DNA of 52,194 nucleotides from Clostridia bacterium (GTDB lineage Bacteria; Bacillota; Clostridia; Oscillospirales; RGIG8002), in contig JAFZXI010000064.1 in NCBI GenBank assembly GCA_017616855.1, forward strand, positions 1-52,194. Direction: 5' to 3'. Positions 11,905 to 44,213 of this stretch are shown here, piece after piece. A program made the position numbers and the translations under genes. Numbering within the stretch: the stretch's first letter is position 1; every line of letters begins with the position of its first letter. The notes under the pieces were generated by a model. That model was not told the origin of the DNA and did no database searches. It saw nothing but the letters and a program-made list of their open reading frames with translations.

Positions 11905-13662
11905 TCAGTCCTCTTTTATCAGCGCGATGTGGACGTCGGTGAGCTGCTTCGGATCGACTGTCGAAGGGGCGCCCATCATGAGGTCCTGCGCGTTCTTGTT
12001 CATCGGGAAGGGGATGACCTCGCGGATTGAATCCTCGCCCGCGAGCAGCATCACCATACGGTCGACGCCGGGGGCGATACCCGCGTGCGGCGGCGCTCCA
12101 TAGCAGAAGGCGCCGTACATAGCAGGGAACTTGGCGCGTACATCTTCTTCGCCGAGTCCGACGATGCTGAAGGCCTTAATCATCAGCTCGGGATCGTGGT
12201 TTCTGACCGCGCCGGAGCTGAGCTCAACGCCGTTGCATACGAGGTCGTACTGATAGGCGAAGATGTCAAGCGGATCCTTTTCTTCGAGCGCCTGCATGCC
12301 GCCCTGCGGCATCGAGAAGGGGTTGTGGCAGAACTCGAGCTCGCCGGATTCCTCGCCGATCTCGTACATCGGGAAATCGACAATCCAACAGAACTCATAG
12401 CGTTCCTTATCCATGTGTCCGGGCACGGAAGCGCCGAGCAGGCGGCGAAGCACGCCCGCGGTCTTCTGCGCGGCGTTCTTCTTGCCGGCGGCAAGCGCGA
12501 TGAAGCTGTTGGGCTTGAGTCCGAGTTTCGCGACGACGGCGTCCTTGCGGTCGAGCAGGAACTTGGAGATGCCGCCGACAAGCTCGCCGTTTTCGTCGAG
12601 ACGGAACCAGCACGCTTTGTTGCCGGAAATGACTTCCGTATCTGCGATGAGCTTATCTATAAACTTGCGCGTTTCCGCGAAGTCGTGAACGACGACGCAG
12701 CGCACCTCGGCGCCCTCAAAGGGCCCGAAGCCGCAGCCCTGCATTTCGGCGGTAACGTCGCTGACTTCAAGATCAATGCGAAGGTCGGGCTTGTCCGTGC
12801 CGTATTTCTCCATTGCGTCGAGATAGGCGATACGCTTGAACGGCGCGGACGAGGCGACGTTGTACTTGCCGAATTTCGCGAATATCGGCGGCAGCACGTC
12901 CTCGAGAACGGCGAAAACGTCGTCCTGCGTAGCAAACGACATTTCCATATCGAGCTGATAGAACTCGCCGGGGCTTCTGTCGGCTCTGGCGTCTTCATCG
13001 CGGAAGCAGGGGGCGATCTGGAAATATCTGTCGAAGCCGGACGCCATAAGCAGCTGCTTGAACTGCTGCGGCGCCTGCGGCAGCGCGTAAAACTTGCCGG
13101 GATGGTTGCGCGACGGCACAAGGTAGTCGCGCGCGCCCTCCGGCGAGGAGCTGGTCAGTATAGGCGTCGTGATCTCGAGGAAGCCGTGTTCGATCATCGA
13201 GGCGCGCAGGGCGGCGACGATGTTGCTTCTGAGCACGATGTTGCTCTTGACTTCGGGATTGCGAAGGTCGAGATATCTGTATTTAAGACGGGCGTTCTCG
13301 TCCGCCTCGCGGGATTTGTTTATCTCAAAGGGCAGGGAATTGAAGCGGCATTTGCCGAGCACTTCGACCTTGTCCGGAACGACTTCGATATCACCGGTCG
13401 CCTGCTTCGGATTCTTCGACTGGCGCTCGCGGACGACGCCCGTGACGGTGATCGTTGACTCCTTGTTGATTTCCTTGAACGCCGCCATCATTTCCGCGGA
13501 CTCGGCAACGAGCTGCGTCGTGCCGTAGAAGTCGCGCAGCACGATGAAAGCGAAGTTTGAGCCAACCTCGCGGACGTTTTCCATCCAACCGCAGAGCGTA
13601 ACTGTCTTTCCGGCGTCGGAAAGGCGGAGCTCGCCGCAGTTATGCGTTCTTGACTGGAACAT
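11905..13662 (-). CDS. aspS: Aspartyl-tRNA synthetase
   Basis: A 585-aa class II synthetase charging tRNA-Asp. The N-terminal OB-fold anticodon domain (about 1-130) comes first. Motif 2 with FRDEDARADRSPGEF lies near residue 215, the bacterial GAD insertion at about 290-400, and motif 3 with GIAPGVDRM near 525. The GAD insertion marks it as the bacterial type. The start has AGAGGGATAG just upstream. A terminator follows. No T-box leader was seen in the 147 bases shared with divergent trxA. Whether it also charges tRNA-Asn cannot be decided here, since gatCAB and asnS are not in the window. Confidence 0.96.
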   Translation of the reverse strand: MFQSRTHNCGELRLSDAGKTVTLCGWMENVREVGSNFAFIVLRDFYGTTQLVAESAEMMAAFKEINKESTITVTGVVRERQSKNPKQATGDIEVVPDKVEVLGKCRFNSLPFEINKSREADENARLKYRYLDLRNPEVKSNIVLRSNIVAALRASMIEHGFLEITTPILTSSSPEGARDYLVPSRNHPGKFYALPQAPQQFKQLLMASGFDRYFQIAPCFRDEDARADRSPGEFYQLDMEMSFATQDDVFAVLEDVLPPIFAKFGKYNVASSAPFKRIAYLDAMEKYGTDKPDLRIDLEVSDVTAEMQGCGFGPFEGAEVRCVVVHDFAETRKFIDKLIADTEVISGNKACWFRLDENGELVGGISKFLLDRKDAVVAKLGLKPNSFIALAAGKKNAAQKTAGVLRRLLGASVPGHMDKERYEFCWIVDFPMYEIGEESGELEFCHNPFSMPQGGMQALEEKDPLDIFAYQYDLVCNGVELSSGAVRNHDPELMIKAFSIVGLGEEDVRAKFPAMYGAFCYGAPPHAGIAPGVDRMVMLLAGEDSIREVIPFPMNKNAQDLMMGAPSTVDPKQLTDVHIALIKED

Positions 13663-13752
13663 ATCTATCCCTCTTCCGTTTTTTCTTTAACCTTGTTATT
13701 TTCTCACATTTGCCGCGGATTGTCAATAGAAAGAGTCAATTTTACATAATCG

Positions 13753-13781
13753 TAGACAAGCCGGGAAAAGTATGTTATAAT
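13753..13781 (+). promoter_or_regulatory. Extended -10 promoter of trxA
   Basis: TAGACA (13753-13758), 17 bases, TATAAT (13776-13781), with TG at 13773-13774. The -10 region TGTTATAAT is the same as in the promoters at 32636 and 49898. Confidence 0.78.
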
Positions 13782-13809
13782 GCGAATAATAAATCAAAGG
13801 AGAACGAAT

Positions 13810-14124
13810 ATGGCTGAATTGAAAATAACCGCCGGCAATTTCAACGCTGAGGTAATCGGCTCGGAATTGCCCGTCCTGCTTGACTTCTGGGCTTCGTGGT
13901 GCGGTCCCTGCCGCATGCTCGGACCTGTCATCAGCGAGCTTGCCGAGGAATACGAAGGCAAAATGAAAGTCGGCAAGGTCAACGTCGATGACGAGCCGGA
14001 GCTCGCCGGCAGATTCGGCGTCAGCAGCATCCCGACGGTCGTGCTGATAAAAGAGGGGAGAGTTGTCGCGGCTTCGATAGGGTATAAGCCGAAGGAAGAA
14101 CTTGTCAAAGCGCTCGGAATATAG
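13810..14124 (+). CDS. trxA: Thioredoxin
   Basis: A 104-aa classical thioredoxin. The WCGPC active site has Cys31 and Cys34, and the cis-proline loop SSIPT follows at about 71-75. It would reduce protein disulfides, including methionine sulfoxide reductases such as those encoded at 1717-2663. The ATG at 13810 is preceded by AAAGGAG; an ATG at 13780 would overlap the promoter's -10. It is a single-gene transcription unit with its own promoter and a hairpin behind it. Confidence 0.96.
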   Translation: MAELKITAGNFNAEVIGSELPVLLDFWASWCGPCRMLGPVISELAEEYEGKMKVGKVNVDDEPELAGRFGVSSIPTVVLIKEGRVVAASIGYKPKEELVKALGI

Positions 14125-14137
14125 AATATAATAAACC

Positions 14138-14164
14138 AACGACCTCCGGCTGCCGGAGGTCGTT
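14138..14164. terminator. Perfect 13-bp inverted repeat between trxA and the kinase gene
   Basis: AACGACCTCCGGC and GCCGGAGGTCGTT are separated by one base (14138-14150, 14152-14164). There is no strong T run on either side, so it is a shared but possibly inefficient terminator for the converging genes. Confidence 0.7.
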
Positions 14165-14181
14165 GCGGTATTAAAACGGAA

Positions 14182-14643
14182 TTATTGTTCCGTAACTTTT
14201 TCGTTGTATTCGGAAAGTAAGCTCCTTATCTCGGCCATATTCACGGTGTTGTACTTATCCGCCCATTTAAGAAGCGCACGTACTGATTTTACGCTCTCTT
14301 TTTTGCCTTTTTCCATGCCGAGTTTTCTTCTGAAATACCTGCGTATTATCCTGCACCTGTATTTGCATCTCGGAACGCTCAGTAAATAGATTATATCGGC
14401 GTCGTCGAAAGATTGTTTGCACCATGCGTAATAAACGCCTTCGATAATCCAACCGTCGCGCTTCAGAATGTCGTTAAGAAGTGCCTCGCGCTCGTGAGGA
14501 TCGCGCTTTTTCCCGTAATGATTCGAAGCGTTGTCCCATTGGATATCGTCAAGGTCGTAATGGGGTATTCCGTATTCTTTTGAGAGCTTTTCGGCAAGGA
14601 AAGTCTTTCCGCTGCCGGGCCCGCCGATAATACGTATTTTCAA
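14182..14643 (-). CDS. Small P-loop NTPase, adenylate kinase/FlaR-like
   Basis: A 153-aa protein with the Walker A motif GGPGSGKT at residues 7-14 and a conserved HYDLDDIQW stretch after strand 2. This is the pattern of the AAA_17/adenylate kinase-like group often annotated as 'DNA topology modulation protein FlaR'. An Arg/Lys-rich lid region CRIIRRYFRRK lies at about 97-107. It starts on TTG at 14643 with TGAGGA upstream. The substrate is unknown, and the FlaR name gives little functional information. Confidence 0.8.
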   Translation of the reverse strand: MKIRIIGGPGSGKTFLAEKLSKEYGIPHYDLDDIQWDNASNHYGKKRDPHEREALLNDILKRDGWIIEGVYYAWCKQSFDDADIIYLLSVPRCKYRCRIIRRYFRRKLGMEKGKKESVKSVRALLKWADKYNTVNMAEIRSLLSEYNEKVTEQ

Positions 14644-34467: not shown

Positions 34468-36270
34468 ATGATGATTAAACGTGTGGTCGCTATTGTATTA
34501 TGCATTGCATTGACTGCGATCATAATGCCTACTTTGGCGTTCGCCGATGAAGGGAAGCAGATTGAAAGCAAGCACAAAACGGGAGACATTGTTCCTGGAC
34601 AGATAATATTACAACTAAAGGAGCCATATTACACATTTGATGGACCTCACTATGATCTTAGAGAATTGCTTCCGGAAATAGAAATTGAGTCTTATACCGA
34701 TATATTCCTTTCTGTTATCACGGCGCGTGAAAAACCTAGGGAAGAAATGAAACCCGATATGGTTGCGAGTGTCGGCACGGAATTTGGAATAAATCTCACC
34801 GAAAAAACGGTAGAGGCTTCTTTGCGTGCTATTAACCTACTTAAAGATAATCCATATGTCAAACTCGTAGAGCCGAATCTTTATGTTGAGCCGTTGTATA
34901 CAATTCCGAATGACCCGCTTTACGCTCCGTCGATTGGCACGCCGCAATGGGGTCTAGAGAAAATCGGTGCACCGGAAGCATGGGATTATATAACAGGTAG
35001 TGATATGACGGACGGCTCTGAATTGGATGATTATGTAAGAGTTGCCGTTATAGATTCTGGTATTTATGATCAACATCCAGATCTTGTGAATAATCTCGAT
35101 ATGTCACTTGCGTATAATGCGTATTATAATACGCTCGGTTATACTTCAGACACTTACGGACACGGAACTCATGTTGCTGGAATAATTGGTGCGGAAGGTA
35201 ATAATCTGGAGTGTATAGCAGGGGTGTGTTGGCGCATACAAATGGTGCCAATTAAAATAATGGATCCGTACAATGATACTGACGCTTTACTTATTAAAAA
35301 AGCTATAGAGTATGCAAAAGATAATGATATATATATTGCCAATCTAAGTTATACTCTTGTTGATTGCGCGGCTTTAAAACAAGCAATTGAGGATTATTCC
35401 GATGCAGGAGGATTATTGGTTATTGCTGCCGGGAATAGCAATACAAATCTCAATTATAGTAATTTGTATCGTTATGTATCAGGGATTTCCGGCGTAATTA
35501 TTGTTGGAGGACTCGATTATAATATGACAGATGATTCTCCTTATAGCGGTTATTGTTTTGGAGATGAGGTTGTTGACCTTTATGCACCAAGTCGATCAAT
35601 CGTCAGCACAGTACCTTATTCTATAAATCCATCAGGATACTTGGAAGCTAATGGCACGTCAATGGCTGCGCCGTTTGTAACGGGTACTGCCGCACTTATA
35701 AAATCAGCAAACACTTCGTACGGCGCCTCAACAATAAAGAAGAGGATACTTGATAACGTTACGACATCGGCTAATCTTACAAACTTTTGCATAACCGGCG
35801 GAAGGCTAAATATTCCGGATGCTTTATACGATATGGGGTATCGGGTCATAATTTCCAATACTATGACTCACGGAACGGTGCTCCCCTCCGCGATATTTAC
35901 AAAGCCGAATACGATCGTATATCTGACGGCGTATCCGGATGCGGGCTATATGCTGAAGCCGGGGACGATGAAGCATAATTCAAACAATACGGTTCAGATC
36001 AGTAAGTGGCGCTGCTTCTGCGCTATGCCGTATTCAAACGACACGATAACTGCGCAGTTCTATATGGTCGGCGACGTTGACCTTGACGGATATATCACGA
36101 TAGCTGATTCGCTTGCTGCGCTGCGCCATTATACGGGGCAGATCACGTTGACGGGCGACGCCTTACTTGCTGCCGACGTTGACGGCGATAACGACGTCGA
36201 TAACGACGATGCGCAGTATATCGCGGATTACTGCGCGGGAACGATCACGGTGTTCCCAATAGAGTTGTAG
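34468..36270 (+). CDS. Secreted subtilisin-like S8 serine protease with C-terminal dockerin
   Basis: A 600-aa pre-pro-protease. The signal peptide is about 1-26 (AFA cleavage). The propeptide (~38-142) has an I9-like fold with LLPEIEIES and TEFGINLTEKT. The S8 domain spans ~150-455 with the triad Asp196 (AVIDSGI), His232 (GHGTHVAG) and Ser398 (NGTSMAAP), and oxyanion Asn323 (AAGNS). A ~75-residue linker domain follows, then a dockerin-like pair of calcium loops (GDVDLDGYIT; ADVDGDNDVD) at ~535-592. AGGAGG lies seven bases upstream of the ATG. The catalytic part is AT-rich (16 G/C of 60 at 35281-35340), while the dockerin end is not (30 of 60 at 36061-36120). The dockerin implies docking to a cohesin protein encoded elsewhere. 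Confidence 0.9.
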   Translation: MMIKRVVAIVLCIALTAIIMPTLAFADEGKQIESKHKTGDIVPGQIILQLKEPYYTFDGPHYDLRELLPEIEIESYTDIFLSVITAREKPREEMKPDMVASVGTEFGINLTEKTVEASLRAINLLKDNPYVKLVEPNLYVEPLYTIPNDPLYAPSIGTPQWGLEKIGAPEAWDYITGSDMTDGSELDDYVRVAVIDSGIYDQHPDLVNNLDMSLAYNAYYNTLGYTSDTYGHGTHVAGIIGAEGNNLECIAGVCWRIQMVPIKIMDPYNDTDALLIKKAIEYAKDNDIYIANLSYTLVDCAALKQAIEDYSDAGGLLVIAAGNSNTNLNYSNLYRYVSGISGVIIVGGLDYNMTDDSPYSGYCFGDEVVDLYAPSRSIVSTVPYSINPSGYLEANGTSMAAPFVTGTAALIKSANTSYGASTIKKRILDNVTTSANLTNFCITGGRLNIPDALYDMGYRVIISNTMTHGTVLPSAIFTKPNTIVYLTAYPDAGYMLKPGTMKHNSNNTVQISKWRCFCAMPYSNDTITAQFYMVGDVDLDGYITIADSLAALRHYTGQITLTGDALLAADVDGDNDVDNDDAQYIADYCAGTITVFPIEL

Positions 36271-36332: not shown

Positions 36333-37244
36333 ATGAAAAAGCTTTATAAACGCTTGCTTGCGGTCGTGCTTTGCTTGGCGCTGACGGCGGCGATAGCTCC
36401 GGCAACGGTATTCGCATCGTACGATAGAGAGCAGGGCAGGGTTAGGCCGGGCGTCTTTCTTTTGAAACTGAAAGAACAATACCTTGGGAATCTTAGAGAT
36501 CTGTTCCCTGAGATTGGTATTGAAGCCTATACTGATGAAAGAAAAACTAAATACTTCAATGAGCATAGTATAATTAGTTCGATACCTCCGCAAGATGATT
36601 TTGGAATGTATTTCATAGTGCATACTTCTGAAAACACCAGCGATGCAGTTATCTACGCGATGGCAATTCTTGAAAATGATCCGCTTGTTGAGTATGTTGC
36701 GCCGATTGATTATATCGATGGTGAGTTTTTCTTCATTAGTTTCTATGAGCCCTACAATGGCGACATTGCCGAGCTGCTTGCGGAGTTTTTGCCTGACATC
36801 GAGATTGAGAGCGTTAGAGAGGAAACCGAAACATTACGTTCAATATTGACTCAGCACGGCAAAGAATTCAGCGATTCTCTCAAAGCGCGTATCAATACGG
36901 AATTTAGGATTACACTTGTCGAAAAGACCGGCGATGCCGTCTTGAACGCGGTGAATAGAATTGAGCAAAGCAATTTTGATTTAATCAAAAGTGTCTATCC
37001 ATTGATTTGGCAAGATAATGGACCCAGACCTTTGGTTGAGTGGGGCAAAGAAGATAATGTAGTTATCGACCCGCCCGTCGATGATAAGCTTACAGTTGCC
37101 GAAGCGCTGGATGTTCTCCGTGTTGCCGCAGGGCTTGCGGTAGCCACTCCCGAAGAGGAGGTCGAATTCGACAAAGACGGCGACGGGGAAGTCACCGTGA
37201 ACGACGCGCTGATCGTTCTCCGCATCGCCGCAGGGCTTGCGTAA
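36333..37244 (+). CDS. Secreted dockerin protein with two subtilisin-propeptide (I9-like) domains and no protease
   Basis: A 303-aa secreted protein: signal peptide ~1-28, propeptide-like unit 1 (~37-127), unit 2 (~131-223) and a dockerin-like C-terminus (~251-303) with two ALxVLRxAAGL helices and one intact calcium loop (DKDGDGEVT). Unit 2 aligns well with the neighbouring protease's propeptide: FLPDIEIES against LLPEIEIES, and NTEFRITLVEKT against GTEFGINLTEKT. Unit 1 has LFPEIGIEAYTD and the closing ENDPLVEYVAP, against KDNPYVKLVEP. There is no catalytic domain. Free-standing I9 domains can inhibit subtilases, so a tethered inhibitor or chaperone of the adjacent protease is the best inference. 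GGAGG lies just upstream of the ATG. Confidence 0.82.
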   Translation: MKKLYKRLLAVVLCLALTAAIAPATVFASYDREQGRVRPGVFLLKLKEQYLGNLRDLFPEIGIEAYTDERKTKYFNEHSIISSIPPQDDFGMYFIVHTSENTSDAVIYAMAILENDPLVEYVAPIDYIDGEFFFISFYEPYNGDIAELLAEFLPDIEIESVREETETLRSILTQHGKEFSDSLKARINTEFRITLVEKTGDAVLNAVNRIEQSNFDLIKSVYPLIWQDNGPRPLVEWGKEDNVVIDPPVDDKLTVAEALDVLRVAAGLAVATPEEEVEFDKDGDGEVTVNDALIVLRIAAGLA

Positions 37245-37319: not shown

Positions 37320-37994
37320 TTATATCCCGTATTTGATTTTGAGGCGTTCGATCTTTTTGCCTATCGGTTTGGCGAGCAGCAGCAGGAATATTACGTTCGA
37401 TACAGCGTAGGTTATCGTGAAGGGGAGTGAAGACGCGATCTTCGTCGCATAGACGCCGAAGTCGAAAACGTTCGTATACCACATCGCCGTGTTGATATCC
37501 ATTATCAGCGAGAATATGACTCCGGCGAGCGCTCCGTAAACGCAGGTGATGATGAGGTTCCTGCGCAGCAGCGGCGCGAGCAGCCCCGCGAAAAGCCCGA
37601 CGAGCCCCCATGCGAGCATCTGGTACGGCGTCCACGGGCCCTGCCCGAAGTAAAAGTTCGATATCAGCGCCGTCATCGCGCCGCAGATGAAGCCGGCTTC
37701 GCCTCCGAAGTACATGGAGAGCAGTATTATTATCGCCGTCACGGGCTTGAATGCGGGGATGACCGCAAACACGAGCCGTCCGACTATAGAGAGCACGCAC
37801 ATTATCGCGATAACGATGAGCTGACGCGCGCTGTTCTCCTTTTTCTCAAACGAGAGGAAAAGCGCCGCGAGCGCGAAAACGACGATTATCAGCGAAAGAT
37901 ACGCGTAGCTTTTATCGGCGAAAACCGTGAAGCCGAGCAGCACGATTATCGGAACGGAGATCAGCAGCAGCGCGATGGAAAGCTTCTTTCTCAT
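37320..37994 (-). CDS. ECF transporter S component (candidate corrinoid-specific subunit)
   Basis: A 224-aa membrane protein with about six hydrophobic helices, the substrate-binding subunit of an ECF importer. The stretch FYFGQGPWTPYQMLAWG, followed by GLFAGLLA, matches S components I associate with cobalamin-type (CbrT-like) ECF systems. ATG 37994 overlaps the EcfA stop by four bases. A longer reading to 38180 only adds Arg-rich sequence antisense-like to EcfA. It is the last gene of a five-gene operon behind a cobalamin-type riboswitch, which supports a corrinoid as substrate. Confidence 0.85.
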   Translation of the reverse strand: MRKKLSIALLLISVPIIVLLGFTVFADKSYAYLSLIIVVFALAALFLSFEKKENSARQLIVIAIMCVLSIVGRLVFAVIPAFKPVTAIIILLSMYFGGEAGFICGAMTALISNFYFGQGPWTPYQMLAWGLVGLFAGLLAPLLRRNLIITCVYGALAGVIFSLIMDINTAMWYTNVFDFGVYATKIASSLPFTITYAVSNVIFLLLLAKPIGKKIERLKIKYGI

Positions 37995-39619
37995 TGCGGC
38001 TTCCTTCCGTTTTCGGCGCAGAGTTTCACGACGTTTTCGACAGTTACGGCGCGGTCGTAGTATCCGCGGCTCATGCGGCTCGCGGCGGTCGTGTAGAAGT
38101 TGTTTTCGGAGAAGAAGGTCTCCGGGTCCTCGACCGCGGCGACGGAGCCGTTGAAGAAGAGCGCGCAGCGGTCGGCGCATGCGGCGGCGAATTCGACGTC
38201 GTGCGTGACGAGCAATATGGTGACGCCGTTTTCTTTGAGGTCGCGGAGGATTTTGATTATGCGGCGTTTCGCCGCGGCGTCGATGCCCTTCGTCGGCTCG
38301 TCGAGCAGGAGCAGTCGCGGCTTGAGCAGCAGGATCTTCGCGAGCGCGCAGAGCTGCTGTTCGCCTCCGCTGAGGTCGTACGGGTGCTTTTCGAGGTAAG
38401 GCGAAACGTCAAACGGAAGGGAGGAGAAGTCGTCGCTTATCTCGCTCAGATCGTCCTTGACGGTGTCGCGCAGGAAGACCGTCTGCACGTCCTGCGGCAG
38501 CATGGCGACGCCGTTTTTGTATAGCTCTCCGCCCTTGTAGGCGGAGATTTTTTTGCCGAACACTTCGACTTTGCCGGAATACGCTTTCAGCAGTCCGGCG
38601 GCAACGGAGAGTGCCGTAGTTTTGCCGGATGCGTTGTCGCCGAGGATGCAGAAGATTTCGCCTTTGCGGACGGAGAGGTCCATATCGTTCAGAACGTCCG
38701 GAAGCTCTCTGGCGTAGCGGAAGAAAACGCGGGAGAAGCGAAGTATTTCTTCGCCGGATACGCGTTCGACGGGTGGAAGCGACCTTGTCGCGTTGCCGTA
38801 TCCGCTTTCGATGAAGGCGCGGCCTTCTTTTACCGTCAGCGGCGGTTCGCTGTCGTCGCCGAGCGCTTTGCAGATGCGGACCGCGGAGGGCATCGCGGCT
38901 TCCATCGGGTCGTCGTTCGCCATTCTGGAGGCGACGGCGCGAGGCGTGTCGTATGCGGCTATCCTGCCGTCTTTAAGTTGTATCGCCTTGTCGGCGACGA
39001 GGAAAAGGTCCTCGAGGCGATGCTCGGAAATGATTATCGTCAGCGAAAGCTCGCGGTTGAGCTTCGCGAGCGTCGCGATAAATTCGGAGGCGGCGATCGG
39101 GTCGAGCTGGCTCGTCGGCTCGTCGAGCAGCAGCAACTTCGGCTGCGTCACCATGACGGAGGCGAGGTTGAGCAGCTGCTTCTGTCCGCCGGAAAGCTCG
39201 GAAACGTCGCGCAGGAACCAGTTGCCGATGCCGAAGTAGCTCGCCATCTCGCTTATCCTGCGGTTGACTGCGCTTTTTGAAACGCCGGCGCTTTCGAGTC
39301 CGAACGCGAGCTCGTGCCAGACCTTGTCGGTCACAATCTGCGTTTCCGGTTTTTGCATGACGAAGCCGATTTCGCCCGCGGAGGTGCGGGCGTCCAGCTC
39401 GGAAAGCTCGGTCCCGCAGAATGTGACGCTGCCGGACTTTTCGCCCGCGGGCGAAAGCTCGCGCTTCAGCATGCGCAGGAGTGTTGTTTTTCCGCAACCG
39501 GTCTCGCCGAAGAGTACGACGAAGTCGCCGGCGTTTACCTTGAATGAAACGTCGGAAAGCGCGTTACGGTCGCTGTTCGGATATTTGAAGGTCAGATTGC
39601 GGACGTCAAGTATTTCCAT
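37991..39619 (-). CDS. ECF transporter fused ATPase (EcfA-EcfA)
   Basis: A 542-aa protein with two complete ABC ATPase domains in one chain. Domain 1 (~1-240): Walker A GETGCGKTT, signature LSGGQKQ, Walker B LLLLDEP. Domain 2 (~300-530): Walker A GDNASGKTT, signature LSGGEQQ, Walker B LLLLDEP with TKGID. Such fusions replace the separate EcfA1 and EcfA2 and are seen in dedicated ECF systems. ATG 39619 has AGAGGATAAA upstream and lies inside the end of ecfT (28-base overlap). It powers import through the S component encoded next. Confidence 0.93.
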   Translation of the reverse strand: MEILDVRNLTFKYPNSDRNALSDVSFKVNAGDFVVLFGETGCGKTTLLRMLKRELSPAGEKSGSVTFCGTELSELDARTSAGEIGFVMQKPETQIVTDKVWHELAFGLESAGVSKSAVNRRISEMASYFGIGNWFLRDVSELSGGQKQLLNLASVMVTQPKLLLLDEPTSQLDPIAASEFIATLAKLNRELSLTIIISEHRLEDLFLVADKAIQLKDGRIAAYDTPRAVASRMANDDPMEAAMPSAVRICKALGDDSEPPLTVKEGRAFIESGYGNATRSLPPVERVSGEEILRFSRVFFRYARELPDVLNDMDLSVRKGEIFCILGDNASGKTTALSVAAGLLKAYSGKVEVFGKKISAYKGGELYKNGVAMLPQDVQTVFLRDTVKDDLSEISDDFSSLPFDVSPYLEKHPYDLSGGEQQLCALAKILLLKPRLLLLDEPTKGIDAAAKRRIIKILRDLKENGVTILLVTHDVEFAAACADRCALFFNGSVAAVEDPETFFSENNFYTTAASRMSRGYYDRAVTVENVVKLCAENGRKPQ

Positions 39620-40470
39620 TTTATCCTCTCCTTCAGTTCGAGCAGGGCGGGGAGCAGCGCGAGCGCTCCGTAGAATACGTAGCAAAGAATAATCAGCGGC
39701 GACGCCGTCGGCAGCACGATGTTGGGGTAGAACTCCATCGAAAGTCCGCCGACCGCAGCGAAGGTTATCGCTCCTGCGGCGAGCATGGCGGCGATGACCG
39801 TGAAAACGACGTCGGAAACGTGGTATTTGAAGAGTGAAAACGGCTTGCGGTGTTTCAATCCGTAGCCGCGCGCTTTCATCGAGTCCGCGGTGTCTATCGA
39901 GTTCTCGAGCGACCAGGTCGTGAGAATCGAAAAGACGCGGGCTGAGCCCTTCAGCTTGTCGGTGATATTGTCGGCGGAATAGAGCCCCATCGCTTTCTGG
40001 GCGTTTCTTATTTTCGCGCTTTGCTGCTTGAAAAGCGGGATATAGCGCAGGGCGGTGCAGAGTATGAGCGAAGATTTCGGCAGTACGCTTCCTGTCAGAT
40101 AAAGCAGTTTTTCGCCGGTCATTACGAGCGAAAACGAACGGAACCATATGATGATTCCGACTATCATTATTGCGGAGACGGCGCCGTAGATTATCGCTTC
40201 GAGCGTTACGGGCTTGTTGTTGATGAAGAAAAGCTCGGTTTCGCCGTGGTGCGATATGAGTGGGTTTATGAGCGTAATGCCGAAGAAAAGGATGATATAA
40301 AGCCATATTCCGCTCTTTTCGCCGCTCTTTTTAACACAGATAAGGCAAAGCACCGAACCGGCAAGAGAAAACGCGAGAATGACGGGGTCGAGCACGAACA
40401 TCGGGAGCAGGATGACGGTTATAAAATACAGCATGAGCGCGGAAGGATGGAGGCGTTTTATGTCAGTCAT
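39592..40470 (-). CDS. ECF transporter transmembrane component EcfT
   Basis: A 292-aa membrane protein with about six to seven hydrophobic segments. The coupling motif SMKARGYG near residue 205 is the second Ala-Arg-Gly motif that contacts the ATPases, and an amphipathic helix with KIRNAQKAMG precedes it at about 155. Its ATG overlaps the end of the transcobalamin-like gene by eight bases. It links the fused ATPase with the S component, and since all parts lie in one operon the system looks like a dedicated (group I) ECF transporter. Confidence 0.92.
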   Translation of the reverse strand: MTDIKRLHPSALMLYFITVILLPMFVLDPVILAFSLAGSVLCLICVKKSGEKSGIWLYIILFFGITLINPLISHHGETELFFINNKPVTLEAIIYGAVSAIMIVGIIIWFRSFSLVMTGEKLLYLTGSVLPKSSLILCTALRYIPLFKQQSAKIRNAQKAMGLYSADNITDKLKGSARVFSILTTWSLENSIDTADSMKARGYGLKHRKPFSLFKYHVSDVVFTVIAAMLAAGAITFAAVGGLSMEFYPNIVLPTASPLIILCYVFYGALALLPALLELKERIKWKYLTSAI

Positions 40471-42253
40471 CGGTTTCCGCGTCCTTTCCGAGATCGAGGG
40501 TATAGACCCATTCGATAATGTCGCCGTCCTTTATGTCGTAGCTTCCGCAGCCGACGTCGGGCGTGTATTTATTGACTCTGTATATCCAGCCGGAAAGCGC
40601 GCCGTACTGCATTTCCGTGTAGCCGCCTATCGAACTGACGTAGACGGAAATCAGTCCGCCGGAGCCGGTGTAGCTGATTTTAATCTGGTTCGCTCGGGTA
40701 ACGGCGAGAAGCGCGTCGAATACGGTGTCGCCGTCTTTTATCACGTAATGCGTCGGCCTGAGGATGTATCCGTCCTCGGGGTAATCCTCGGCGACGCCTT
40801 CGAGGACGCGGCAGCTGATGCTTATCGTTACGGCGCTGTCGCCGTCGCTTGCGCTGTCGAGGTTGACGTTGTAATAATCCTTGACGGAGGTGAAGTTGAA
40901 GAATAGCGTTCCGCAAATCAGCATTATCGCGCCGATTGCGATCGGTATGATGTTTTTCAGCGTTGCCTGTTGGCGCACGCGCAAATAGACGCACGCGAAC
41001 GCGAACATCAGCACGATACCGCCGCAGACGTAATACTTATAGGAAATGCCTTTGGAGGCGGCTTCGTTTTCGAGAGCGGATGATGAATCGTCGGAAGAAT
41101 AACTTTCAGCCGACGAGGAGGCGACGCTAGTGTCGGATGAAGAATCAGCATAAGAACTCTCCGATGAATCCGAAGAATCAGACGACGTTTCCTCTGTTGA
41201 TAAGCTGCTGTTTTCGGGAGGTAGGGAAGAGCTGTCTTCTTCTGTGTTTTCGGGAGGCGTAACGACAGGCGGCTCGACTTGAGTGCCGCCGGACGTCCTG
41301 AATTTGTAGAAGGAGGTTTTTCCGGCGGAGAAGCGCTCCGCTGCGGTTAACGCACATGCGGCCTGATAGGTGGCGATGGCGTTTTTGACTCCGCCTTTAA
41401 CGTGGCAGTACGTGCCGTCAGAGGTTTGGTACTGACCGAGCGCGTCGTAAAGCGTGTGCCCGTTCTTAATGAAGCGGCCGTCGGATACCGGGTCGATACC
41501 GAGCGACGTCAGCGCGATAATGACCTGTGCGGTGCTTTCGCATGTAGGCATCGGCGGTCTGCCCATTCCTTTGTAATCGCCGTCCTCCGTTTGCCTTGAG
41601 GAAAGAAACGCGAGCGCTTTGTCTATCGCGGCGGCAACGTCAGCTTCGTTATTGTACGGAGCGAGCGCCTGAAGCGTCATGGCGGTGATGTCGATATCGG
41701 AGGAAGAAAACCCTTCGAGCGCCCAACCCTGCATATTGCCGTTTGAATCGGAAAGCTGATGTGCAAGGATATAGTCAATCAAAGAGCGGCGCGTGTTTGT
41801 TTTGCTTTCGTATCCGGCGCAGTCGAGCAGGATAAGCCCGAATATAACGTCGTTTATGTTTTCGCTGACTTTTTCTTCAAGCACCGAATAGACGAAGTCG
41901 TTGTCAACTCCGGATACCGCAAATGCGAGAGCGACGCGCTCTTTTTGAATGTGAGGGAGCGAGCTGCCGTTTGAGGCGACGAAGGTGTTAAGATACGATA
42001 GATACTTATCGCCGTTGATGGAGGGGTCGTGGCGCTTGATGCTGATATAAAGCCAATCGGAATTGCTCGTTCCCGCTTCGGGCGCGACAACATTGTCGAC
42101 GTATCCCTGCAGCGAGCCGCCCTCCGAAGCGAATGCGGAAAACAGCTTTGAAGACTGCGGGGAATACGCGCTTGAGGGTATGGCAATGCCTGCCGCGACA
42201 GCAAGTATCAGCAGCAGGCATGCTATACATTTTTTGAAAAACGTCTTATTCAA
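40463..42253 (-). CDS. Membrane-anchored transcobalamin-like protein: alpha/alpha toroid + DUF4430
   Basis: A 596-aa surface protein. Signal peptide ~1-29. Helical repeats of the terpene-cyclase/prenyltransferase alpha-alpha toroid type run ~40-315 (ALAFAVSG, GLILLDCAG, DIDITAMTLQALAPY, STAQVIIALTSLG). A Pro/Ser/Glu-rich linker (~325-395) follows, then two transmembrane helices (~406-424 and 434-454) joined by a basic loop (RVRQQATLK), and a DUF4430 (transcobalamin C-domain-like) domain ~470-590 with the GWIYRVN segment. Animal intrinsic factor and transcobalamin pair these same two folds. Positive-inside topology puts both binding domains outside. It starts on TTG 42253 with GGAGG five bases upstream and overlaps ecfT. 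Corrinoid binding is inferred. Confidence 0.82.
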   Translation of the reverse strand: MNKTFFKKCIACLLLILAVAAGIAIPSSAYSPQSSKLFSAFASEGGSLQGYVDNVVAPEAGTSNSDWLYISIKRHDPSINGDKYLSYLNTFVASNGSSLPHIQKERVALAFAVSGVDNDFVYSVLEEKVSENINDVIFGLILLDCAGYESKTNTRRSLIDYILAHQLSDSNGNMQGWALEGFSSSDIDITAMTLQALAPYNNEADVAAAIDKALAFLSSRQTEDGDYKGMGRPPMPTCESTAQVIIALTSLGIDPVSDGRFIKNGHTLYDALGQYQTSDGTYCHVKGGVKNAIATYQAACALTAAERFSAGKTSFYKFRTSGGTQVEPPVVTPPENTEEDSSSLPPENSSLSTEETSSDSSDSSESSYADSSSDTSVASSSAESYSSDDSSSALENEAASKGISYKYYVCGGIVLMFAFACVYLRVRQQATLKNIIPIAIGAIMLICGTLFFNFTSVKDYYNVNLDSASDGDSAVTISISCRVLEGVAEDYPEDGYILRPTHYVIKDGDTVFDALLAVTRANQIKISYTGSGGLISVYVSSIGGYTEMQYGALSGWIYRVNKYTPDVGCGSYDIKDGDIIEWVYTLDLGKDAETDD

Positions 42254-42256
42254 CTT

Positions 42257-42271
42257 AACCTCCGGGAGGTT
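42257..42271 (-). promoter_or_regulatory. Palindrome containing the ribosome-binding site of the transcobalamin-like gene
   Basis: AACCTCC and GGAGGTT (one base apart) make a perfect inverted repeat; the GGAGG of the downstream gene is one arm. A 5-bp hairpin with a 5-base loop could partly mask the site. The effect is likely modest. Confidence 0.4.
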
Positions 42272-42281
42272 ATTTTATGAC

Positions 42282-43907
42282 TTAGATGATATCACCGTGC
42301 ATAACGCCGGACTGACCGGCATCGAGATATTCTGTGCCGGGTTCTTCGCCGCCTGGAGCGGGAATGAGCTTCGCGGCAATGCGCAGGACGTAAAGCGCGT
42401 CGGCGACTGTGATTTCGCCGTCGTTGTCCATATCGCAAATCGCAAGTGCTTCATCAGTTACGGGCACGAGTTTTGCCGCAATGCGGAGGACTGCGAGGGC
42501 GTCGGATACGGTGATTTCGTGGTCATAATCCATATCGCCGATCATGTCGCGTACTTCGGGGAGCTCGACGGTGAAGTCCGGCGCAAAACGCAGCACGAGC
42601 GGCAGGCCGTTTTCTGCTTTTTTGTCGATGGCGACAGTGTGCGCGACTGCGGTAAGCAGATCACGGCTGAGCTTAATCTCGCCATTTTCGTCGGTTACGA
42701 ACTCATGTCCGTCGAAGAGAACGGTCATGCCGACAACGGGATTGGTCGTGACGACCGGGCTCCAGTCTTCGCCATAGGTCGTATCGTTGCTGACGAATCT
42801 GATTATATGCTTGTTAATATCGGTAATGTCGATTTCGGGATACTGCATTCCGACGCCGTAGGGATCGCCGAAGTAGAAGAGGATTTCGTCGCCTTCTTTG
42901 AGGAAGGTTTCGTTTATTCCGACTCCGGGTTCTTCGCCGTTGACGGTGTAAAGCCAGCCGTCCCAACCGCCGAACGTTCCGGCGGCATCGCCGTTAATGC
43001 TCGAGATATAGGGGCTTGCGCCTTCTGCTCCGATAACAGTGAGGGCGTCGCTGTGCTCGTCAGCGTAGATAATGAAATCCTGAACGGAGAGCTGCTCGCC
43101 GGTATAAGCCACCGTGACATCGTCATAGAAGAGATTTGAGTTGATGCCCTCGATGCGGAGTTTAACCGTCATTTCCGAAGTGGCTGCGGGAAGCTCGGGA
43201 ATTTCTATCTCGGCGTCGGGAGCGAAACGGAGCACAAGCGGCAGGCCGCTTTCGGCTTTTTTGTCAATGGAGATCGCGTATTTACCTGCGGGCAGGAGTT
43301 CGTTATCGAAAACTATCTTGCCTTCTTCGTCGGTGGTGAAGGTGGCTTCTCCGATGACGACCGTCATACCGACGACGGGATTGGTCGTGACGACCGGGGT
43401 CCAGTCTTCGCCATAGGTCGTATCGTTGCTGACAAAGCGGATAACTCCGCTGTCAATATCATCTGTGTCTGCAACGGGGTACTGCATTCCGACTCCGTAG
43501 GGATCGCCGAAGTAGAAGACAACGTTGTCGCCTTCGGAAAGGTTGTAGCCGTTTACGCCGACCGGGGGTTCTTCGCCGTTGACGGTATAGAGCCAGCCGG
43601 AGTATGCGCCGAGCGTTCCGGCAACGTCACCGTTTATGTCGGTAATATAAGGGTTGCTGCCGGTCGCGCCGACGACTGTTATCGTGTCGCTGTTGTTGTC
43701 GGCGTATATGATCAGATCCTGAACGGTAAGATTTGCTGAGGAATACTGAACGGTCAGCGTTTCATAATAATAATTCTGCGATACGCCTTCGATGCGAAGG
43801 GTAACGGTCATCTGATGCTGCGCTCCGGCGAATACTGCCATCGGAAGCGCCGCGGTCACGAGCGCGAACGCGAGAATGACCGCCAGAAGCTTTTTGACGT
43901 GTTTCAT
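42282..43907 (-). CDS. Secreted double-DUF4430 dockerin protein
   Basis: A 541-aa secreted protein: signal peptide ~1-27; DUF4430 domain 1 (~33-135, with SGWLYTVNGEEP); a ~100-residue beta domain; DUF4430 domain 2 (~246-347, DGWLYTVNGEEP); a second copy of the beta domain; and a dockerin (~457-515) with two loops (GDMDYDHEIT; CDMDNDGEIT), each followed by an ALxVLRIAAKL helix. The two halves are internal duplicates. DUF4430 is the family of the transcobalamin C-terminal domain. ATG 43907 has TGGAGGTAA upstream. It is the first gene behind the riboswitch and would be a dockerin-held corrinoid binder; binding itself is inferred. Confidence 0.83.
   Translation of the reverse strand: MKHVKKLLAVILAFALVTAALPMAVFAGAQHQMTVTLRIEGVSQNYYYETLTVQYSSANLTVQDLIIYADNNSDTITVVGATGSNPYITDINGDVAGTLGAYSGWLYTVNGEEPPVGVNGYNLSEGDNVVFYFGDPYGVGMQYPVADTDDIDSGVIRFVSNDTTYGEDWTPVVTTNPVVGMTVVIGEATFTTDEEGKIVFDNELLPAGKYAISIDKKAESGLPLVLRFAPDAEIEIPELPAATSEMTVKLRIEGINSNLFYDDVTVAYTGEQLSVQDFIIYADEHSDALTVIGAEGASPYISSINGDAAGTFGGWDGWLYTVNGEEPGVGINETFLKEGDEILFYFGDPYGVGMQYPEIDITDINKHIIRFVSNDTTYGEDWSPVVTTNPVVGMTVLFDGHEFVTDENGEIKLSRDLLTAVAHTVAIDKKAENGLPLVLRFAPDFTVELPEVRDMIGDMDYDHEITVSDALAVLRIAAKLVPVTDEALAICDMDNDGEITVADALYVLRIAAKLIPAPGGEEPGTEYLDAGQSGVMHGDII
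42721..43439. repeat. Internal near-identical direct repeats in the double-DUF4430 gene
   Basis: About 60 bases starting near 42741 and again near 43380 (offset 639 bases, 213 codons) are almost identical and encode VSNDTTYGEDW and TTNPVVGMTV in both halves. Neighbouring parts of the duplication are more diverged. This points to recent duplication or gene conversion. Confidence 0.8.
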
Positions 43908-43922
43908 AATATTACCTCCAAT

Positions 43923-43956
43923 AAAAATGCCTTTCCCGCTAAAGGGCGAGAAAGGC
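43923..43956 (-). terminator. Terminator hairpin of the riboswitch expression platform
   Basis: On the minus strand GCCTTTC-CGC pairs with GCG-GAAAGGC, followed by ATTTTTAT, 16 bases before the first gene's start. Position between the aptamer and the ribosome-binding site suggests conditional termination. Confidence 0.82.
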
Positions 43957-44147
43957 GCATAACAAAACAAACCGACATAAAGCCGGCGTTCAGTCCGCGC
44001 TTTTCATTACCCAAAAGCGTTCTCCGTGATAGCGGAGCCGAACTTTCTTCCGGTAGGCGACCCGACTTGTGACGTTTTGTCAGATACGGTAATGGCTGTT
44101 GCGGCGGATTCTCACCGCGCTTCTCCCGGGCCGGAAGAACTATTCAC
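43957..44147 (-). promoter_or_regulatory. Cobalamin-type riboswitch
   Basis: The minus-strand leader carries the B12-riboswitch core: GCGGTGAGAATCCGC followed by GCAACAGCC (about 44118-44095), and a B12-box-like AAGTCGGGTCGCCTACC (about 44068-44052). TTCTTCCGG (44138-44130) pairs with CCGGAAGAA (44053-44045) to close the aptamer. Further hairpins (CTCCGCTATCACGGAG; CGCTTTTGGGTAATGAAAAGCG) follow before the terminator. The aptamer looks compact; the exact subclass (adenosyl- or methyl/hydroxocobalamin type) is not settled. Corrinoid binding would be expected to switch off the five-gene import operon. Confidence 0.82.
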
Positions 44148-44156
44148 ATCGTTTGC

Positions 44157-44162
44157 ATTATA
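44157..44162 (-). promoter_or_regulatory. Extended -10 element before the riboswitch
   Basis: TGATATAAT on the minus strand (TATAAT at 44162-44157) lies about 10 bases before the predicted aptamer. No good -35 hexamer is seen, and some transcripts may also come from psd upstream, since no terminator separates them. Confidence 0.5.
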
Positions 44163-44213
44163 TCAATAAAACGGATGGTTTTATATGACGATTATTACTA
44201 TTTATATAAAAAT

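Follow-up and report, generated by a model that had tools for sequence, protein, structure and literature searches.

The capture of vitamin B12 at the surface of Gram-positive gut and rumen bacteria is poorly known (PMC8941943, PMC6977713). In gut Bacteroides, BtuG, BtuH and BtuJ capture B12 at the cell surface ahead of a transporter (PMC6143338, PMC8941943, PMC13398666), and in the BtuH paper cobamide acquisition is described as less known for Firmicutes, with one btuH homolog lying near a predicted energy-coupling factor (ECF) cobamide transporter. ECF-CbrT of Lactobacillus delbrueckii (6FNP) imports cobalamin and cobinamide, both of which it binds in the nanomolar range (PMC5997447). In animals, B12 is carried by transcobalamin, haptocorrin and intrinsic factor; transcobalamin has a 12-helix barrel closed by a 13th helix, followed by a beta domain built of hairpin, helix, hairpin and hairpin (PMC11107200), and binding starts at the beta domain, after which the alpha domain closes (PMC11107200, PMC5599065). 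Here we describe an operon from a gut or rumen Clostridia bacterium (contig JAFZXI010000064.1; the whole stretch of 52,194 nucleotides analysed is called the window) that very probably serves corrinoid scavenging, in which a membrane-tethered, two-domain transcobalamin-like clamp would bind corrinoid and hand it to a CbrT-type ECF importer. Like the Bacteroides proteins, its products would act at the surface before a transporter, but those proteins have unrelated folds (propeller, jelly roll) and serve a Gram-negative TonB system, whereas the present operon pairs a transcobalamin-like fold with an ECF importer.

Results and discussion

The operon runs from 44168 to 37320 on the minus strand, on which all features below lie unless marked otherwise, in the order aptamer, intrinsic terminator, gene 1, gene 2, EcfT, fused EcfA and S component. 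Every element named in the original prediction was found, namely the riboswitch-type leader, the terminator, the dockerin/DUF4430 proteins, EcfT, the fused EcfA and the S component. The genes are separated by a gap of 28 bp and then overlap by 8, about 28 and 4 bp (ATGA), as expected of one operon. What is reported here on gene content, riboswitch, fold, affinity of the S component and conservation of the operon was established by computation.

The candidate transcobalamin-like receptor

Gene 2 (40463-42253) encodes the membrane-tethered, transcobalamin-like candidate receptor of 596 aa. Its AlphaFold2 (AF2) model, built with 63 relatives (predicted local distance difference test score, pLDDT, 83.2), was confident for the toroid, two transmembrane (TM) helices and DUF4430, with residues 331-400 disordered. 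The alpha/alpha toroid (about residues 30-310; 41324-42166) has 13 helices including the closing helix (DSSP on the AF2 model), and Pfam-type models recovered it as weak prenyltransferase/squalene-cyclase toroid matches (1e-3 to 4e-4). The C-terminal, transcobalamin beta-like DUF4430 (residues 470-590; 40484-40846; PF14478, 2.4e-16, 60.4 bits against a cut-off of 23.8) is modelled in the order hairpin, helix, hairpin, hairpin, and the human transcobalamin beta domain alone (5no0) superposed on the model with a TM-score of 0.76. In a Foldseek search of the PDB with the whole model, ranks 1-14 were transcobalamin, haptocorrin and intrinsic factor (E 9e-7 to 5.5e-5), as the predicted transcobalamin architecture had anticipated; gene 2 thus has the layout of that family, a secreted alpha/alpha six-hairpin domain followed by a beta domain (AF2, Foldseek). 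The earlier proposal of a membrane-anchored toroid-DUF4430 protein also held, except that the anchor is a two-helix hairpin (residues 405-451; 40901-41041; AF2 helices 405-426 and 432-451, hydropathy) rather than a single TM segment. Since the turn of this hairpin is positively charged, the positive-inside rule would place both toroid and DUF4430 outside the cell.

Gene 2 shares with the animal carriers a secreted 13-helix alpha/alpha toroid and a beta domain of equal order, but it departs from them in several respects. No conserved toroid cysteine was found among the conserved columns of the 63 gene 2 family sequences, so that the alpha-domain disulfides of the carriers have no counterpart; a 90-residue linker and the membrane hairpin replace their short-linker, soluble form; full-length sequence similarity is undetectable; and the context is a bacterial operon. 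Since gene 2 lacks the disulfides as well as the soluble form with its short linker, we do not file it in the animal carrier family, and because PDB sequence searches never reach transcobalamin we claim no full-length sequence homology to it. It is a tentative proposal, which we hold to be rather doubtful, that in both of their domains the toroid-DUF4430 receptors of bacteria share ancestry with the B12 carriers of animals, that the clamp evolved in bacteria as a front end to an ECF importer, and that animal transcobalamin and intrinsic factor derive from such a receptor.

The importer and its substrate

The S component (37320-37994) matched the ECF S-component family (3.9e-10), and its only PDB sequence match was 6fnp_A, that is ECF-CbrT (8.1e-9). 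By profile it matched CbrT at 3.6e-17 and RibU at 1.3e-4 (65.9 against 24.8 bits). Among solved S components it is therefore closest to CbrT, a proven B12 S component, and not to RibU, which upholds the corrinoid-type assignment made from the DNA alone. With EcfT (39592-40470; PF02361, CbiQ/EcfT, 7e-10) and a fused EcfA-EcfA' ATPase (37991-39619; two ABC_tran domains, 3.7e-55; TIGR04520, 2e-93; corrected start ATG 39619), the operon encodes a transmembrane component, two ATPase domains and an S component, as an ECF transporter requires.

It could be argued that the importer takes up another substrate, such as a riboflavin-like vitamin or cobalt, with cobalamin only regulating it, and both Pfam and NCBIfam do give riboflavin-type families as its nearest label. 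Yet the NCBIfam riboflavin match, at 30 bits, falls far short of its cut-off of 99, the Pfam label is uninformative because CbrT itself weakly matches PF07155, and the preference for CbrT over RibU given above points the other way. A cobalt importer for B12 synthesis would make little sense either, as CbiC was not found in this organism. We therefore consider a substrate other than corrinoid very improbable, and the S component is best read as CbrT-like. ECF-CbrT resembles the present system in its CbrT-type S component, EcfT and two EcfA domains and in its link to B12 (PMC5997447), but it uses a shared ECF module and its locus is nrdJ-cbrS-cbrT-pduO, whereas the module described here is a dedicated one with a fused ATPase, and shares its riboswitch-controlled operon with putative surface binders. 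The operon joins a known importer class to an apparently undescribed transcobalamin-like front end.

The leader

Upstream of gene 1 lie a compact cobalamin-type aptamer (44042-44168) and an intrinsic terminator (43929-43956) with an 11-bp stem containing seven G-C pairs, followed by ATTTTTATT (U tract). The adenosylcobalamin (AdoCbl) model RF01482 aligned full length to the aptamer (44153-44019) and scored 30.6 bits, short of its cut-off of 50 (E=8e-4 in a search of 451 nt); this was its sole match in the genome at E<=0.5, and RF00174 gave no match at the operon. As RF00174 was silent here, we built as a proper test a covariance model, R1, from nine leaders, eight of them above the RF00174 cut-off, all taken from other genera in order to avoid circularity. 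In the 52-kb window R1 had a single match, at the aptamer site (50.3 bits; E=5.2e-10, R1 E-values being rough), and it also located a leader at the same position in both same-genus relatives (L046 and L053). Across 55 matches from public loci pairing in the named helices stood at 90.6% and both-side changes numbered 159, where shuffles gave 46; this signal was lost when the pairing partners were slid; that alignment leans towards R1 because it was fitted to the model, but an unfitted alignment of the nine leaders still showed compensatory changes in 10 of 19 pairs. The core GGUGA.AAUCC...GCCAUUACCGU...AAGUCgG and the covarying outer helix are common to the aptamer and the accepted riboswitches of RF00174 and RF01482, from which it differs as a compact variant that lies under both curated cut-offs in this genus. 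The riboswitch originally predicted is thus real, as R1 and covariation demonstrate, although as a divergent compact subtype and not as one recognised at Rfam cut-offs; its response to corrinoid is predicted. Since both Rfam models miss the subtype at gathering level in the genus, automatic annotation would overlook B12 control here.

A kissing loop that pairs the P5 loop with a hairpin further downstream can be drawn in the window; its plain pairs are not kept in the two same-genus leaders and we make no claim for it. Matches of the leader to PyrR and other sub-threshold Rfam families were weak, none better than E=0.17, and had no support.

Recurrence in other genomes

A survey of the order and genus covered 117 genomes and found DUF4430 above its cut-off in 83. 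Of the 57 RF00174 riboswitches above their cut-off in these genomes, 39 were followed on their own strand by DUF4430 at no more than 10 kb (median 1.1 kb), and no opposite-strand DUF4430 lay near the remainder. Random placement would give about 0.2 such pairs, under the simplification of a 2.1-Mb genome and uniform placement. The survey proposed with the original prediction thus gives strong co-occurrence of DUF4430 genes with B12 riboswitches. Outside the order, at least 18 genomes elsewhere in the phylum share the riboswitch-DUF4430 layout by eye (for example G131, G166, G228 and G352). Searching public sequences with the receptor gave 80 loci, in 71 of which toroid-DUF4430 occurred together with EcfT, EcfA and the S component (70 with the ECF genes downstream, one upstream), and three of the nine others (L065, L103 and L122) reach a contig end. 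A riboswitch lay upstream in 53 of the 70 public loci with at least 1.8 kb of upstream sequence, and at least five more were recovered by RF00174. The order survey and the public loci have several contigs in common, so their counts are not independent. Some genomes encode the toroid and the TM-DUF4430 part in separate adjacent genes (for example L034, L041, L042, L047 and L050), and in some EcfAA is fused to S; such gene fusion and fission supports a joint function.

The operon is also present in a Lactobacillales, on a 592-kb plasmid of Latilactobacillus curvatus (CP117684.1; 6791-12433 of locus L164), where an LPXTG protein matching the toroid part of the receptor accompanies DUF4430, EcfT, EcfAA and a CbrT-like S component (3.3e-14 to 6FNP); no Rfam riboswitch was found upstream of it.

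Weighing the interpretation

Several observations weigh against a transcobalamin-like scavenging system. Whole-chain superposition of gene 2 on transcobalamin is poor (root-mean-square deviation 14-25 Å), as the predicted domain placement is not that of the closed carrier, and searches of PDB sequences with gene 2, including by profile, did not reach transcobalamin. The gene 1 model is poor (pLDDT 61.7), and no Rfam match to the aptamer passes the gathering level, the cut-offs of RF00174 and RF01482 included. By sequence, the nearest relatives of the gene 2 toroid are squalene-hopene and drimenyl cyclases, and an invariant D188 lies within an SDxDxTAM motif, as might be expected if the toroid were an enzyme, terpene-cyclase-like or corrinoid-modifying, instead of a lid. 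The protein is, however, predicted to be exported, is fused to DUF4430, stands under predicted corrinoid control beside a B12-type importer, and has non-enzymatic carriers as the closest matches to its combined fold, so that an enzymatic role seems hardly credible.

Finally, DUF4430 occurs in genomes with no cobalamin riboswitch match among the matches listed (G162, G170, G202, G229, G251, G253, G316 and G319), in which the domain may have a different ligand, or the riboswitch may be of a subtype that was missed. On a plasmid of Vescimonas fastidiosa (NZ_AP023417.1; 4855-8020 of locus L167), DUF4430 and toroid proteins stand beside MoxR, DUF58, transglutaminase and dockerin genes and without ECF genes. 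Together with the wall or dockerin anchors of gene 1 relatives, this is compatible with a system in which the S component and ECF module alone import corrinoid, and the DUF4430 and toroid proteins bind another surface target (cell wall, glycan or partner protein) and merely share the operon. Against this stand the persistence of the toroid-DUF4430 pair with EcfT, EcfAA and S in the 71 public loci and the nearest folds of that pair, all of them corrinoid carriers. We think this division of labour improbable, and prefer a receptor that feeds the importer.

Gene 1 and neighbouring genes

Gene 1 (42282-43907; start most likely ATG 43907, preceded by GGAGG) encodes a protein with a signal peptide, two units of DUF4430 plus a prealbumin-like domain, and a C-terminal dockerin. 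PF14478 matched in two copies (1.3e-25; 90 bits against a cut-off of 23.8), with match cores at 43506-43670 (51 bits) and 42867-43031 (50 bits). The type I dockerin (residues 459-509; 42387-42539; PF00404, Dockerin_1, 7.9e-5) is marginal at 23.2 bits against a cut-off of 22.9, but phmmer matched it to dockerins of solved structures and a duplicated DxDxDGxxTVxDAL motif is visible. The top Foldseek matches of its low-confidence model were the transcobalamin family, at the DUF4430 domain, and bacterial 3U7Z. The latter, RUMGNA_00854, is a bacterial DUF4430 protein whose solved structure resembles DUF4430 of gene 1, but it is one small domain and is named only 'putative metal binding protein'. 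The gene 1 protein would be a 'first catcher', held by a cohesin through its dockerin.

Both same-genus relatives keep gene 1. In relatives its slot is taken by a secreted protein of 250-350 aa whose core joins a DUF4430-like to a prealbumin-like part and which ends in a PKTGD/TM tail or a dockerin. In first genes of related operons, L061, L080 and L105 among them, an EF-hand/dockerin-like DxDGDGxLTINDAL replaces the first helix of classical DUF4430. Two secreted dockerin proteins, one a subtilase, are encoded convergently to the operon (34468-36270 and 36333-37244, both plus strand), and the same-genus relative L053 has a dockerin gene at the matching spot (13395-14360, minus strand).

Probable corrinoid need of the organism

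Gene inventories of the genome were made by single-family searches. They found three S-methyl_trans genes and an MtgC/MtbC-type corrinoid protein that has the motif GDLHDIGKNLV and is likely the main user of imported corrinoid. Neither CbiC nor an adenosyltransferase of the CobA/BtuR or PduO type was found, absences that are likely but not certain as the genome is 97% complete, and a profile search found no DUF4430 outside the operon. Such a gene profile fits a corrinoid auxotroph that uses methyl-corrinoid. The MtgC/MtbC-type gene (G000:C18:6501-6836) lies next to genes for a serpin and an AddB-like helicase.

Proposed mechanism

From these features we infer the identity of the ligand, the order of capture, the hand-off and the repression. 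When cellular corrinoid is low, the aptamer would be empty, the terminator avoided and the operon transcribed, as the anatomy of the leader suggests. The exported gene 1 protein, with its two transcobalamin-beta-type DUF4430 domains and dockerin, would catch corrinoid either at the cell surface or beyond it. The gene 2 protein would be exported and held by its two-helix hairpin, toroid and DUF4430 outside, and tethered directly above the importer; it would take up corrinoid with its beta domain, and the toroid would then close over the ligand, as in animal transcobalamin. The ligand would pass to the CbrT-type S component and be driven inward by the dedicated EcfT/EcfAA module. Human carriers grip B12 so tightly that release takes proteolysis (PMC5997447), and hand-off in the bacterium therefore predicts a tethered clamp that binds more weakly and reversibly. 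Such a clamp would fit the long linker and the separate tethering of its two halves.

Implications

In the literature searched, from which subscription journals and preprints largely fell outside, we found no description of a bacterial toroid-DUF4430 B12 receptor; the sole relevant link for DUF4430 was an animal-carrier paper, and nothing relevant was found on the Streptomyces toroid relative SCO2321. Publicly, relatives are annotated as 'DUF4430 domain-containing protein', 'LPXTG' or 'terpene cyclase'. The operon provides a specific, testable machine for B12 capture by Gram-positive bacteria, one that many Clostridia share and that occurs, beyond them, on a megaplasmid of Latilactobacillus, and surface proteins labelled 'domain of unknown function' or 'terpene cyclase-like' become candidate corrinoid binders. 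Through it, the origin of the animal B12 carriers becomes testable as well.

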